44,829 bases of DNA from Thermoplasmatales archaeon SM1-50 (GTDB lineage Archaea; Thermoplasmatota; E2; DHVEG-1), in the NCBI GenBank assembly GCA_001595945.1, contig LSSI01000040.1, positions 1-44,829 on the forward strand. Direction: 5' to 3'. Made by a program: the position numbers and the translations under genes. Shown one piece after another: positions 38,531 to 44,829 of the stretch. Numbering within the stretch: position 1 is the stretch's first letter; the number at the start of each line of letters is the position of its first letter. Under the pieces are notes generated by a model, which ran no database searches, had not been told where the DNA came from, and saw only the letters and a program-made list of their open reading frames with translations.

Positions 38531-39872
38531 CTATCGATCCTTCATCCATGAGGTAATATCTGAAATAACTTCCTCATAAACATGCCCTTCAATCAGATAC
38601 TCCGCATTCGTTGGAGTACCGGTTTCAGGAATAAAAAGAGGATTCAATGCCGGATAGGTTTTTTAATGTGACAGATGCATTTTCAACGAACATTTGATCC
38701 CATCGAGTAAAATCTGTCATCGTAACCTAATAATCCCGTCTTCCTTGGAGGATCAGCAAAGGAATGTATACTGCTTGTGCTGTTATTAGGGGATAATATA
38801 TTGCTAGATCCGCCCAATATGATTTTGTGGCACCAAGAACAAACTCACTTTCGTTGATATCTAAATTCTTAATTTTTATGACGAGCTCCTCAAGCTCTCA
38901 AATCTCTCCAGATTGATTATTACCAGAAAGACTCGCAAGATATCGTGACTGTTCTAATATCAGGTTCTCAAGAGGACGGGCCGGTGCCGCAAAAAGAATA
39001 AATTCAATGATCCACTCGTCCTGCGAGACGATACGCGGTGTCATCATACCACCCAAACTATGACCCAGAACAAAAATCCGTGACTGAGCCAAAAAAGAGA
39101 TGTTGTTTAACACATTTATCGCAGCTATGGCATCATAAATAATTTCAACCTGAACCGTGAAATTGTGAATCGCTGTAGATTCCTTAAGGTAGTGCTTTGT
39201 TCGTTTCTCGTAGCGTAAAATCACCAAATCTTTTTGGTGGAAGACCCCAGACGATATCCTTGAAAGATTTATTGGGACCATATGTTTCATCTCAATCATT
39301 TGGCCCGGAGCCATACATAAGAATAACAGCGGGAAATGAGCCGGTACCATTTGCAAGAGTTAACGTCCCTAGTAATTCTCTTTGTCCTGCACCGATAGTG
39401 ATATTTGTTTCAGTGAAAGCGCTTAGATTTGCTTAGGATGGGGGAGAAAAGTTAAACTCCTTCTGTGTTGGAACAACCAGCAATCCAAAGATTTTCTTTT
39501 TATCGTTAAACGAAATCTTAACATCAAGGACAGCGATTTTGCTAATATTACAGGTGACATATACGACAGTATAACCGGATTCATTTGTCACTTTGGATTT
39601 TATAATTCCTTTGATATTACCATTGAGGGGGATAACCTGCTGTGTCCAGATATTTTGAAAATCTTCAGCAGTAATTCGTGAGGTAACCGAGGAAAAAAAG
39701 TATATATGGCGGTAAATTTTTTTTTGCATAAGCAGTTTGATAATATCAGTAGCAAAATATTCTATTGTTTCTACAGGTGGTTGTTGTTCTTATACACAAC
39801 CAGTTAATACCACTCCTGCAAGAACAATTATTACAAAGCAATATGTGATATGTTTTACACTTTCATTTTCAT
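38531..39872 (-). pseudogene. Decayed lipoprotein alpha/beta hydrolase with DUF3887-like N-terminal domain
   Basis: VIIVLAGVVLTGC lipobox, DFQNIWTQQVIPLNGNIKGIIKSKV, ITIGAGQRELLGTLTL, HSLGGMMTPRI, LLILQGRRDY, VYEEVISDITSWMKDR lie in order but in different frames separated by stops. Confidence 0.85.
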
Positions 39873-40233
39873 TACGATATCAACAATATGGCTTTATATT
39901 GTAAATCATTCAATAAAATTTCTGTACTATAAGAGAAAAGTATAAGAGTTCTGTCAGTTTTAAATTATAAAAAATTAAGACAAAATCACTATTTTTCCAA
40001 AAAATCACAGAAAAGATTTAAGAGGGGATTGCTTTTCTAGATTTAATGAATGCATTTCTTTGGGGTAGAATTTGTTGTCTTTTAATGTTTTAGAATTAAC
40101 AATAAAAAAATAGTATAAGATGAAAGATGAATCAAAATAATTGTTCCAATAGAATACCTTGCCTAATCATATAATATATATGTTCAGAAGAAAAAAAATA
40201 TGAATCAAAAAATCGATAATGAGGGAAAAAATA

Positions 40234-42183
40234 ATGTTAGTTGGAAATTCAAAATTTGAAGAGGCTATAACTATTGCGAAAAAAGGCTCCCATTGTGGTA
40301 TGTGCCGATTTGATTTTCTTGATACCGGCTTGTGCCCGTCCGGTACTAAATACGGGTATCTTGCATATTGGCCTCAAGGCCGTATGCAAATATTTAAAAA
40401 TGTTATGTCAGGTAAGGTCAAACCTACTGAAAAATTAATTGAGATAACCGATTCTTGTTCGCTTTGTGGAATTTGTGACAAACAATGTAATTTTGCTACA
40501 CAACTACGTCCTGAAAAAGTAGCGAAAGCTTTAAAGGAATATGTTGAAAGTTTAAATGACAGTGATTTTCAAAACATTCCTGAAGATGAAAATTTAAAAG
40601 GGTTACGTGATATTGTTGGACCTCAATGGGCAACAAATGATCCAATTATTGTATCGTCTTATATTAGTTCGATTATATCTCCGGACGCGGGGTTAAATTT
40701 TTATATAGTGATGCCAAAAGACACAGAAGAACTTTCAAAGGTAATAAAATATGCAAATATTCATAACCTGCCATTTTTACCAAGAAGTGGAGGTACGCTT
40801 CTATCAATGGCTGCCCCAACAGTTCTTTCGAAAGCCTTTGGTCTTGAACAAGGAATTGTTATTGATCTACTGAGAATGAAAAAACTTGAAATTGATACCG
40901 AAACCCTTACAGCAACTGTTGGTGCTGGTATTACAGCATTTGACCTTCAAAAAGAGGCGCATAAACATAAATTACGAGCAAATGTTGCGGAAGCAGGGGC
41001 ACATATATGTGGAAATATTGCATCGACTGGGATTCTATCCACTTGGGGAAATAAATACGGTTGGGCTGCAGATAATTTTATTGATTTAGAATCTGTTGAT
41101 GATGAAGGTAACATTAGCAGACATAGTGATTTAGAGATAAAAAATCCGTATTCAACAGAGTACGGATTTACGAATATATCCTTGACTCCTCCTTTAATCG
41201 TCACACAAGCAACCGTGAGATTAAATCCTGTTTTTGATGATGAGGAAGCGGTGTTTGTACCATTTGAAAATATAAAAGATGCACTCCACTTGTCATTTAC
41301 AGTTGCAAAACGTGGGATAGGGTTTTCAAATGTTATTTTATCACGTAAATATTTAGCTGAATTTATCAGCCCAACACCAAAGATTGCAGAGGATTTCGAG
41401 TTTATTTTGGAAAAATATATGAAATTAAATTATGTCGTTGATATTATCTGCAATAAAGACGAGAAAAAAATAATTGAAAACATGGTGGAGTATACAATTG
41501 ATAAGTCAACACTAACAGCTCTAATTTTAGGATGCCCCAAGCTCGCAACCCTAAAAAATAGTGAATTTATGAAGATACTTTCAGAAGAAAAAGATCCGCT
41601 CAAAGCTCTTTTTGCCGGACCTATGAAAAAACATTTTGAACAGGCTTTAGATGCAACACCTGAAAATATATCAAAAATTTATGACAAAGATTTGCAGGAA
41701 TTCTTTAAAAAAGTATATTCAAAACCAAAGATGACGGACATCGTCTGGTTACATGAACATAGAATCTTTCCATCCCGATTAATGAGACAACGTATGTTTT
41801 TACCAATGGGTGGTGTTATTTGGACCGCATATGAAAATAATCTATTGGAATGGATTAATATGTTTGAAACGGTAGGTGAAAAACATCAGTTAATCCATGC
41901 ACTTGGTTTTATTAGTCCATTTGATCAAGGCAGATTTGCCGTACTTGAATATGATTTCTATTATGACCATAACGATGCTAATGCAAAAAAATGTGTTGAT
42001 AAAGCAATTTTAGAATCGCAAGAAAACTCCTTAATGATAGATGGTATTTTATCTGCATTAAATTTCTATTTCAAGGGCCTTTACAGGAAAGAACATATTC
42101 TCTTTCCGATTGCGAAAGCAATTTCCAAAGAGGACCAAGAACTGTTTAGAGAGTTGCTGAACAATATCATCGGGGATGAATAA
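40234..42183 (+). CDS. N-terminal Cys-rich (2[4Fe-4S]-like) + FAD-binding type-4 oxidoreductase
   Basis: GSHCGMCRFDFLDTGLCP...DSCSLCGICDKQCNF then FLPRSGGTLLSMAAPTV...LTATVGAGITAFDLQKEAHKHKLRANVAEAGAHICGNIASTG. Confidence 0.82.
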   Translation: MLVGNSKFEEAITIAKKGSHCGMCRFDFLDTGLCPSGTKYGYLAYWPQGRMQIFKNVMSGKVKPTEKLIEITDSCSLCGICDKQCNFATQLRPEKVAKALKEYVESLNDSDFQNIPEDENLKGLRDIVGPQWATNDPIIVSSYISSIISPDAGLNFYIVMPKDTEELSKVIKYANIHNLPFLPRSGGTLLSMAAPTVLSKAFGLEQGIVIDLLRMKKLEIDTETLTATVGAGITAFDLQKEAHKHKLRANVAEAGAHICGNIASTGILSTWGNKYGWAADNFIDLESVDDEGNISRHSDLEIKNPYSTEYGFTNISLTPPLIVTQATVRLNPVFDDEEAVFVPFENIKDALHLSFTVAKRGIGFSNVILSRKYLAEFISPTPKIAEDFEFILEKYMKLNYVVDIICNKDEKKIIENMVEYTIDKSTLTALILGCPKLATLKNSEFMKILSEEKDPLKALFAGPMKKHFEQALDATPENISKIYDKDLQEFFKKVYSKPKMTDIVWLHEHRIFPSRLMRQRMFLPMGGVIWTAYENNLLEWINMFETVGEKHQLIHALGFISPFDQGRFAVLEYDFYYDHNDANAKKCVDKAILESQENSLMIDGILSALNFYFKGLYRKEHILFPIAKAISKEDQELFRELLNNIIGDE

Positions 42184-42185
42184 CT

Positions 42186-42596
42186 ATGGTGAAATTTCTC
42201 TCTGAAGAATGGCTTGAACAGTGTAAAAGGTATATGCATGAAAAACTTGATCCTGAAAAAGATTTGAAAAATGTTACAACATCATTACTTGGTGTTGTTG
42301 AGCATATTCCTCCAGAGAATTCAACGATGAATTTCTATTTAAACATCGATAATGGAAAGTTAACAGATTTTACAGTCAGTTCGGGTGATTCGTATGAAAA
42401 AGAAGCTGAATTTGTAATAATGGGTAGCTATGGAACATTTCGAGGCATCCTCAAAGGTGAAACAAACATGACCATTGCTCTTCTGAAAAACAGATTAAAA
42501 TTACAGGGAAACAAGATTAAAGCATTACGATTAATGAAACCACTTGATGGAGTTATTGCATCTTTAAGAGAAGTGACTGATGAATTTGAGGAGTAA
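42186..42596 (+). CDS. SCP2 sterol/lipid-carrier-like protein (copy 1)
   Basis: MVKFLSEEWLEQCKRYMHEKL...FVIMGSYGTFRGILKGETNMTIALLKNRLKLQGNKIKALRLM; small SCP2 pattern. Confidence 0.7.
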   Translation: MVKFLSEEWLEQCKRYMHEKLDPEKDLKNVTTSLLGVVEHIPPENSTMNFYLNIDNGKLTDFTVSSGDSYEKEAEFVIMGSYGTFRGILKGETNMTIALLKNRLKLQGNKIKALRLMKPLDGVIASLREVTDEFEE

Positions 42597-42647
42597 AATA
42601 AAACGTTGAATGTTCGAAATCACGTTCTGAAGAAAAAGGAGAAGCGT

Positions 42648-44033
42648 ATGAGTTCTGTATCTGGAGAAAAACAAGGTATACAACGTTTGATGAAATTGAC
42701 ACCACCAAAGGACCAATGGACCCCGGTGGACAGCGCATTGCATACCCCAAAAATGTTCTTTTGTAACTACAAAAAAGCTCAGGAACGCATGTTTGCTGCG
42801 ATCTATCATACCTTTAAGCATCACTATCAAAACAACTTTCTGTATCATCGCGTCTGCGAAGTCAATGGAATCACTCCTGATCAGATTACCTCGGAATACG
42901 ATGTACAGAAAATACCGCTACTCCCTGATGCGTTTTTCAAGGATTACCCAGATGGAAACAAGTTTTTACACTGGTTGAAAACCATCTTCACAGGATCGCT
43001 TCCGAAACCGTTTTTTAAATCCAACAATCCATCCTATGATGAGATTATCGATGAGTTCAATAGAAAAGGAACCAGCATTATGTTTACAAGTGGTACAAGT
43101 GGTCGATTCAGTTTCATCCCGCGTGACACCCGTTCATGGAATAGGGTGAAATACAGTGCGATGAAATCGGTCATGGAGTTAATGGATTACAACCCAACTG
43201 ACCAAGTTATATTGCTAATTCCTGATCCTCGACAGACAAACCTGACGATTGCAAGTCTCTTTGGGATAGCCTATGATTTATACGACCCGTCAAACATTCA
43301 TGTCGCATTGGACATGAAAATCACCACACAATTCCTCCGGATGCAGCGGGATGAGACGATTGGTCTTTCAGAAAAGTTAAAAGCAAAGGCATTGGCCACA
43401 ATCAGCCCTTTGGTACAGCGGAACTCAGACCTCCGTGTTATCCATTTATTAGAAGAAGCTGAGAAGAACAAAAAACGATTGAACATCGCTGGACCACCGT
43501 TCTGGCTTGACCAGATCATGGAACGAATGAAAAAAGAAGGAACAACAGTGCGTCTCCCAGAAAGTCAGATTCTCACCGGTGGTGGCTGGAAAGCAGAGGA
43601 GAACAAACGCCTTCCTGAAGAATTGTTTCGGGAGAAGGTCACAGAAATCCTTGGGATTCCTGAAGAACGATACCATGATGTCTATGCCATGTCTGAGTGC
43701 AGTTCAGTGTTTCTGAGTTGTGAAGGTCATTACAAGCATATCCCCCCGGTCGTCATCCCCTTAGTCCTTGATGAGAATCTCAACCCGCTTGGATACGAGC
43801 AGGTCGGGCGTTTTGCCTTTATTGACCCCTTGCCGGACAGCTACCCCGGTTTTATCATCACTGGTGATAAAGTAAAGATCCTTGAGCGTTGCCCGAAATG
43901 CAACCGGGAAGGCCCTGTATTGGATGTTGAGGTGACAAGGATGCCTGGTTTTGAGGGTCGAGGATGCGCAGCTATCATGGCTGAGTTGATGCAAAAGGAT
44001 GGTGAGGACCATAGTGAACTTCCCGTCGGATGA
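42648..44033 (+). CDS. LuxE-family acyl-protein synthetase (adenylating)
   Basis: IPLLPDAFFKDYP...SIMFTSGTSGRFSFIPRDTRSW...QILTGGGWKAEENKRLPEELFREKVTEILGIPEERYHDVYAMSECSSVFLSCEGHYKHIPP. Start at MSSVSGEKQ after AAAGGAG. Confidence 0.87.
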   Translation: MSSVSGEKQGIQRLMKLTPPKDQWTPVDSALHTPKMFFCNYKKAQERMFAAIYHTFKHHYQNNFLYHRVCEVNGITPDQITSEYDVQKIPLLPDAFFKDYPDGNKFLHWLKTIFTGSLPKPFFKSNNPSYDEIIDEFNRKGTSIMFTSGTSGRFSFIPRDTRSWNRVKYSAMKSVMELMDYNPTDQVILLIPDPRQTNLTIASLFGIAYDLYDPSNIHVALDMKITTQFLRMQRDETIGLSEKLKAKALATISPLVQRNSDLRVIHLLEEAEKNKKRLNIAGPPFWLDQIMERMKKEGTTVRLPESQILTGGGWKAEENKRLPEELFREKVTEILGIPEERYHDVYAMSECSSVFLSCEGHYKHIPPVVIPLVLDENLNPLGYEQVGRFAFIDPLPDSYPGFIITGDKVKILERCPKCNREGPVLDVEVTRMPGFEGRGCAAIMAELMQKDGEDHSELPVG

Positions 44034-44406
44034 ATGGATTCATATTTTTAAAGAGGAGCTTAATAAAAATAAGACCTATGAGGATGTTGCTAAGGATTGG
44101 GAAGGTGATTTTCTGTTTGTGATTACACCGGATGAGGGATTGAAAGACGAAGTCGTGTTTTACATTGACTTATGGCATGGGAAATGTAGAGATGCATATC
44201 TGGTCAAGGGGGAGAAGCAGGCCAAGTTCGTGTTCAAAGGACCGTTTTCGAACTGGAAGAAGGTCATCCTCAAGGAGCTGGATCCAATCCGGGGATTGAT
44301 CAGGGGGTTGTTCACTGTGGATGGGGATTCTCGGGTGATCCTGGATCAAGCTAAGGCAGCTCAGGAGCTAGTAAACACCGCAAGTACAATACCAGTTGTT
44401 TTCTAA
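44014..44406 (+). CDS. SCP2-like protein (copy 2), GTG start inferred from alignment to copy 1
   Basis: VNFPSDEWIHIFKEELNKNKTYEDVAKDWEG...FVFKGPFSNWKKVILKELDPIRGLIRGLFTVDGDSRVI. Confidence 0.7.
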   Translation: MNFPSDEWIHIFKEELNKNKTYEDVAKDWEGDFLFVITPDEGLKDEVVFYIDLWHGKCRDAYLVKGEKQAKFVFKGPFSNWKKVILKELDPIRGLIRGLFTVDGDSRVILDQAKAAQELVNTASTIPVVF

Positions 44407-44416
44407 TGGGTTATGT

Positions 44417-44829
44417 ATGGGACGACAAACCGTTGACTGTTTCTTCTGGGATTCTAGCATACACTTTGATACGAAGCTTTCGTTTGTCAGTGAGGAAATC
44501 AACAATGGGATTATTCTTCGTAAACCAGTGTTCACTGTTGAGGCGTTAGGGAAAATCATTGACAGGATTCGGATCGCTCGGCAGGAGTTACTGCGTACGC
44601 ATGACATCCCGGCGGTTCTTGATGCAATCGATAAAGTTAACGCGTTATGGCGGGATCCTTCCTACCACGGTAGGAAGATCGTCCGAGATGTGCTGCCGAC
44701 CGTGACTGGGTTTTCCATTGAGATGATTGAATCCTGGGGTTTTGATTATTTCTTTGAGATTCTCAATAAAGAGAGTCTCCCGCTTACAGGCAAGCTTCAG
44801 GCGCAGAACTATCGGGAGTTTTCTCCTTG
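44417..44829 (+). CDS. LuxC-family acyl-CoA reductase, partial at window edge
   Basis: Hand translation MGRQTVDCFFWDSSIHFDTKLSFVSEEINNGIILRKPVFTVEALGKIIDRIRIARQELLRTHDIPAVLDAIDKVNALWRDPSYHGRKIVRDVLPTVTGFSIEMIESWGFDYFFEILNKESLPLTGKLQAQNYREFSP. Confidence 0.72.
   Translation, partial: MGRQTVDCFFWDSSIHFDTKLSFVSEEINNGIILRKPVFTVEALGKIIDRIRIARQELLRTHDIPAVLDAIDKVNALWRDPSYHGRKIVRDVLPTVTGFSIEMIESWGFDYFFEILNKESLPLTGKLQAQNYREFSP

Follow-up and report, generated by a model that had tools for sequence, protein, structure and literature searches.

Five genes lie in tandem on the plus strand of contig C40 of a Thermoplasmatota MAG, encoding in order a FeS/FAD_binding_4 protein, a first SCP2-like protein (SCP2a), LuxE, a second SCP2-like protein (SCP2b) and LuxC, which is cut after 137 codons where the contig ends together with the window (the whole stretch of 44,829 nucleotides analysed here, ending at 44829). 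This five-gene observation is confirmed. We read the whole as a carboxylic-acid reductase cassette whose substrate is hydrophobic, accompanied by a FeS-flavoenzyme that would act on the same pool, and give this reading a probability of about 45%.

Gene content and conservation of the cassette

The features of the locus, with the evidence for each, are:

40219..42183, plus strand: FeS-FAD oxidoreductase (VAO/PCMH superfamily), 654 aa (PF01565 85.5 bits, conserved Cys pattern, AlphaFold2 fold)
42186..42596, plus strand: SCP2a, SCP2-like putative carrier paired with the FAD gene (PF02036 30.2 bits, adjacency to and co-divergence with FAD)
42606..44033, plus strand: LuxE-like acyl-protein synthetase (PF04443 103.1 bits, 7xc6_E match, motif alignment)
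43999..44406, plus strand: SCP2b, SCP2-like putative carrier (PF02036 34.2 bits, match to Thermus SCP2 2cx7, conservation)
44417..44829, plus strand: LuxC-like acyl reductase, N-terminal 137 residues only (68% identity to L031 LuxC)
38534..39840, minus strand: alpha/beta-hydrolase remnant in three frames (tblastn with L031:6116-7453, frames -1, -2 and -3)

The original prediction had placed the five genes correctly and its archaeal origin for the DNA is borne out; the FAD gene starts at 40219 or 40234, and congeners put the start of SCP2b at 43999, not at 44014 as first given. For LuxE the ATG at 42648, where the congeners begin, is a likelier start than that of the open-reading frame at 42606. 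SCP2b overlaps LuxE by 35 bases in the window, and the same overlap is present in congeners. The window also encodes UbiA and geranylgeranyl-reductase-like genes. The alpha/beta-hydrolase gene, which carries DUF3887 in its intact copies (Pfam), has decayed in the window, whereas in L031, L033, L036 and L037 it is intact and runs divergently to the FAD gene; it is a neighbour, not clearly a member of the system.

The order FAD-SCP2a-LuxE-SCP2b-LuxC recurs in 10 relatives besides the window, spread over four genera of one family (L031-L038, L040, L042), a count that takes in relatives with LuxE in pieces (L033, L034, L035) and LuxC in pieces (L034). The relatives that bear a name are Thermoplasmata/Euryarchaeota MAGs, among them UBA33 and one that came from LacPavin sediment samples. 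The survey of gene order proposed beforehand thus finds SCP2 and the oxidoreductase staying beside LuxE/LuxC, and the FeS-FAD protein predicted to share their operon is indeed conserved with them. Within the genus, gene overlaps of -7, -35 and -4 to -11 bases are found repeatedly. The flanking genes vary between genera, which argues that the cassette is a unit and not part of a general synteny. Elsewhere the cassette lacks SCP2a (L039), is partial (L041, L043) or is interrupted by a run of N with LuxC absent (G014). Besides the three relatives with LuxE in pieces a fourth has it split, through assembly error or decay, and we count this against the main reading. The split case, G034 (L043 and L074, on one contig), is broken inside LuxE, with FAD-SCP2a and the N-terminal part of LuxE near 1.50 Mb and the C-terminal part of LuxE, SCP2b and LuxC near 0.78 Mb, by rearrangement or misassembly.

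The scan of relatives' contigs detects close relatives only, and statements of absence hold within the Thermoplasmatota sampled. Searches of plasmids gave nothing closer than remote matches to the FAD domain and to bacterial acyl-CoA reductases, and a literature search, beyond whose reach most subscription journals lay, found no archaeal LuxE/LuxC/SCP2 cassette described.

LuxE, LuxC and the SCP2 proteins

LuxE scores far above the Pfam cut-off of 24.9 bits, and matches 7xc6_E in a sequence search of the PDB (E 2e-20). It keeps the motifs TSGTSG and TGGGWK as well as C454, which aligns with the GC motif of 7xc6_E and is conserved in the cassettes; it falls below the bioluminescence equivalog NF052244 (89.7 bits against a cut-off of 550). 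Since the contig stops inside the gene, the window's LuxC fragment finds no match in Pfam; the assembly holds no other LuxC match. Residues 3-140 of the fragment are the part 68% identical to L031:11786-13333, a full-length LuxC from the same genus, which scores 207.6 bits with PF05893 over residues 66-473. In this congener C307 lies in a DQQGC motif, conserved in congeners and aligned with 7xc6_A, at a position beyond the end of the window's contig. The profiles named beforehand (PF04443, PF05893, PF02036) therefore all found matches, PF05893 in the full-length congener and not in the window fragment, and the identities first assigned to LuxE and LuxC stand. By family and residues, the pair is likely to reduce an acid to an aldehyde with ATP and NAD(P)H.

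In the PDB, LuxE and LuxC match by sequence nothing but chains E and A of a single solved complex (7xc6), the LuxC-LuxE fatty acid reductase of luminous bacteria, with which they have in common both subunits, the adenylation motif, the LuxE C-terminal Cys and, in the congeners, the LuxC catalytic Cys. In contrast to bacterial lux, the archaeal cassette has two SCP2 proteins and a FeS-FAD enzyme in place of luxA, luxB and luxD, none of which lies within the cassettes of the window and its relatives, as had been noted for the window's operon. The pair had been called unexpected in an archaeon with ether-lipid enzymes; it is present there, but the surprise was overstated, as other Thermoplasmatota carry LuxE-LuxC in different layouts, and the window's own genome has three acyl-CoA dehydrogenase and five aldehyde:ferredoxin oxidoreductase matches, so that acid, aldehyde and acyl-CoA traffic exists without the cassette. 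Both enzyme families are equally common in cassette-less relatives and thus do not discriminate. In the other sets (L110, L120) LuxC follows LuxE as in the cassette, but LuxC either carries a fused AMP-binding domain or precedes a short-chain dehydrogenase, and no SCP2 or FeS-FAD gene was seen in the short stretch examined. Layouts among L110, L120 and L135 are LuxE with a LuxC-AMP-binding fusion, LuxE-LuxC-SDR, and a 492-aa LuxC after a LuxE-like gene that has no Pfam match.

LuxE-like matches occur in 45 of 59 relatives. A LuxE paralogue (~40% identity, same motifs) is found in the window's own genome on C89 (L044:8380-11195) and in L045, L046 and L048-L055, adjoining a ~330-aa protein that has a transglutaminase core in the two copies scanned (L044, L046); at some of these loci a transporter-like protein comes next.

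Both proteins proposed to be SCP2-like exceed the PF02036 cut-off of 21.3 bits. SCP2b is close to the Thermus protein (2cx7, E 1.4e-21), is 74-90% identical across 12 cassettes and has WHGxC in every cassette; SCP2a is a more distant SCP2. That they carry a hydrophobic substrate was, and is, a reasonable guess: SCP2b probably acts as a carrier, and for SCP2a the role is plausible. In ubiquinone synthesis, the SCP2 domain of UbiJ is proposed to serve partner enzymes by holding a polyisoprenoid intermediate (PMC9499169). UbiJ and UbiT are SCP2 proteins too, but their pathway is different and has no LuxE/LuxC. Our literature search turned up no role assigned to archaeal SCP2 proteins.

A phylum search for SCP2b found 53 of 292 genomes with a match, counting those in cassettes. 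From these, 18 loci outside the cassette were hand-picked by score and spread over families, many of them mutually related; at least one of Fe-ADH, ALDH and 3-hydroxyacyl-CoA dehydrogenase is present in 14 of the 18. Fe-ADH is directly adjacent in 10/18, ALDH is nearby in 7/18 (a figure biased upward, since some loci were chosen for a known nearby LuxC/ALDH-like match) and 3-hydroxyacyl-CoA dehydrogenase occurs at 4/18, within ~1 kb in three and ~3 kb away in L165. That Fe-ADH and hydroxyacyl-CoA dehydrogenase would turn up as neighbours was not foreseen when the loci were chosen. A TPP enzyme resembling benzoylformate decarboxylase is present with a 2-hydroxyacid dehydrogenase at four loci, and four others have none of these enzymes. 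These neighbours, overlooked in the original prediction, tie SCP2b to aldehyde, alcohol and acyl substrates independently of the cassette. As in the cassette, the homologous SCP2b of these SCP2b-FeADH-ALDH sets adjoins aldehyde/alcohol enzymes, but alcohol and aldehyde dehydrogenases, sometimes with the TPP decarboxylase and hydroxyacid dehydrogenase, replace LuxE/LuxC and the flavoenzyme. In L160, L166, L171 and L175 the operon comprises 2-hydroxyacid dehydrogenase, the benzoylformate-decarboxylase-like enzyme and SCP2, with Fe-ADH and/or ALDH. Congeners have a TPP enzyme near the cassette (L031:3995-5605), which was considered as a link to the decarboxylase on the SCP2b side and rejected: it is pyruvate-oxidase-like, shares ~21% identity with that decarboxylase and does not occur in the window.

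The FeS-flavoenzyme and its SCP2a partner

The FAD_binding_4 domain of the flavoenzyme spans residues 163-301 (PF01565 cut-off 26.4 bits) and is preceded by a Cys-rich stretch within the N-terminal 120 residues, with C26, C29, D32, C39, C80, C83, C86 and C90, in which D32 occupies the place of the expected third Cys of the first motif. The pattern is conserved in 25 homologues, all positions being constant where the sequence is complete, except D32 (N in L066). Fer4-type Pfam models score below cut-off on this N-terminus (Fer4_17 19.6 against 22.2 bits, Fer4_8 19.4 against 27), the domain alone had no match in a PDB profile search and it modelled poorly when treated separately (pLDDT 63). The conserved Cys pattern nevertheless argues for clusters despite the sub-threshold Fer4 scores, and we infer two iron-sulfur clusters, one perhaps Asp-ligated. 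The family is confined to 18 genomes, all in the window's own taxonomic family, among 389 sampled genomes of the phylum.

An AlphaFold2 model built from 25 sequences (pLDDT 81.7) gives residues 120-651 the predicted fold of flavoenzymes that oxidise alcohols and hydroxyacids. Two groups of structures, the eugenol/vanillyl-alcohol oxidases (Z 17.8) and D-LDH (Z 17.5), are tied, so the fold does not fix the reaction class. Profile ranking against the PDB, for the FAD domain only, places the D-lactate dehydrogenase type above the vanillyl-alcohol type and both above AGPS. The usual C-terminal cap domain is not matched in Pfam, and the C-terminal part has conserved motifs of its own (WLHxxR, EYD, KGLxRKE).

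The FAD gene and SCP2a form a unit of their own, which the original prediction had missed. The two occur without LuxE/LuxC in L061, L062, L063, L064 and L067, so that their job need not depend on LuxE/LuxC (a point against the main reading), and as two tandem pairs ahead of LuxE in L040 and L042. Distances of FAD and SCP2a are correlated (Mantel r 0.93, p 0.0002, 20 pairs) and a tree requires at least four changes of cassette label, both tests being on few, mutually related sequences. The window's FAD protein is 47-50% identical to that of most congeners and 60-66% identical to cassette copies of other genera, whereas its LuxE is 79-82% identical to those same congeners and 67-68% to other genera. 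This contrast and the tree indicate that FAD-SCP2a was swapped, or one tandem copy retained, independently of LuxE-SCP2b-LuxC. One clade of FAD genes is without SCP2a (L066, L068, L070, L071). SCP2a-less FAD genes (L070:7072-9813, L071, L068, L078) stand divergent from a conserved ~225-aa protein that has no Pfam match and carries the sequence MVKNNAGLCTFDPxAPCSxC... in L070.

Proposed chemistry, alternatives and meaning

From what is known of the two families, we infer that LuxE would use ATP to turn a free acid into acyl-AMP and transfer it to its own C454, after which the acyl group would move to the active-site cysteine of LuxC and be reduced to the aldehyde with NAD(P)H. SCP2b would hold the acid or aldehyde for the pair. 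The FeS-FAD enzyme and its own carrier SCP2a would work on the same pool, most likely in alcohol/aldehyde interconversion, exchanging electrons with a soluble carrier, for instance ferredoxin, through the N-terminal clusters. The reaction of the flavoenzyme, its direction, the substrate and the role of the carriers are guesses, in which alcohol/aldehyde interconversion is our first choice and hydroxyacid oxidation the second.

That second choice leads to the alternative that the flavoenzyme is a 2-hydroxyacid dehydrogenase of GlcD/LctD type, supplying or draining 2-oxo acids beside the LuxE/LuxC aldehyde step. The best PDB sequence match is indeed LctD of an electron-bifurcating lactate dehydrogenase (7qh2, E 2e-17, residues 168-365), and the operons that SCP2b homologues share with NAD 2-hydroxyacid dehydrogenase and the benzoylformate-decarboxylase-like enzyme in other Thermoplasmatota point the same way. 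LctD and the flavoenzyme have the FAD_binding_4 domain in common, but in the alignment the 467-aa LctD offers no counterpart of the N-terminal Cys-rich domain, and the C-terminal part is unmatched by sequence. The GlcD equivalog TIGR00387 gives 50.9 bits, over residues 163-358 only and far under its cut-off of 567.9; with the unmatched cap, the peculiar C-terminal motifs and the equal scores of VAO-type structures, this makes the alternative unlikely. Those VAO and eugenol oxidase structures, at the top of the fold list, would suit a cassette that reduces aromatic acids (phenylpropanoid or amino-acid derived) with a vanillyl-alcohol or eugenol oxidase-like dehydrogenase, which we consider quite unlikely given the tie with D-LDH, an identity of 14%, and the preference for acyl chains suggested by the SCP2 carriers and by hydroxyacyl-CoA dehydrogenase/thiolase genes next to some SCP2b homologues.

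LuxE and LuxC might instead perform acyl transfer for protein or lipid modification, the product not being a free aldehyde. The paralogue that in many relatives sits by a transglutaminase-core protein and transporter, without LuxC, indicates that LuxE-like activation has other uses in the phylum; complete cassettes, against this, retain LuxC and, in its DQQGC motif, the Cys, and we think such a role very unlikely. The option put first in the original prediction, an alkylglycerone-phosphate-synthase-like flavoenzyme serving the synthesis of ether or wax lipids, is highly improbable: the shared FAD-binding superfamily yields 37.7 bits to 4bc7, confined to the FAD domain (residues 164-367) and weaker than the matches to D-lactate and vanillyl-alcohol type enzymes. 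AGPS chemistry is not known to require FeS clusters.

The preferred carboxylic-acid reductase reading has a more specific form, an anaerobic archaeal pathway from hydrophobic acid to aldehyde to alcohol with its own SCP2 carrier for each redox step, the second performed by a new FeS-flavoenzyme family that exchanges low-potential electrons and has one partly Asp-ligated cluster; as a complete scheme this is doubtful.

Little is known of how archaea deal with fatty or isoprenoid acids and aldehydes. The cassette represents a compact, testable set: the chemistry of two enzymes can be predicted, two candidate carriers come with dedicated partners of their own, and the FeS-flavoenzyme family is an uncharacterised one. 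The neighbourhood of SCP2b is a lead on SCP2 function across Thermoplasmatota. If the main reading is true, the cassette would plausibly provide anaerobic archaea with a new route for acids and aldehydes.
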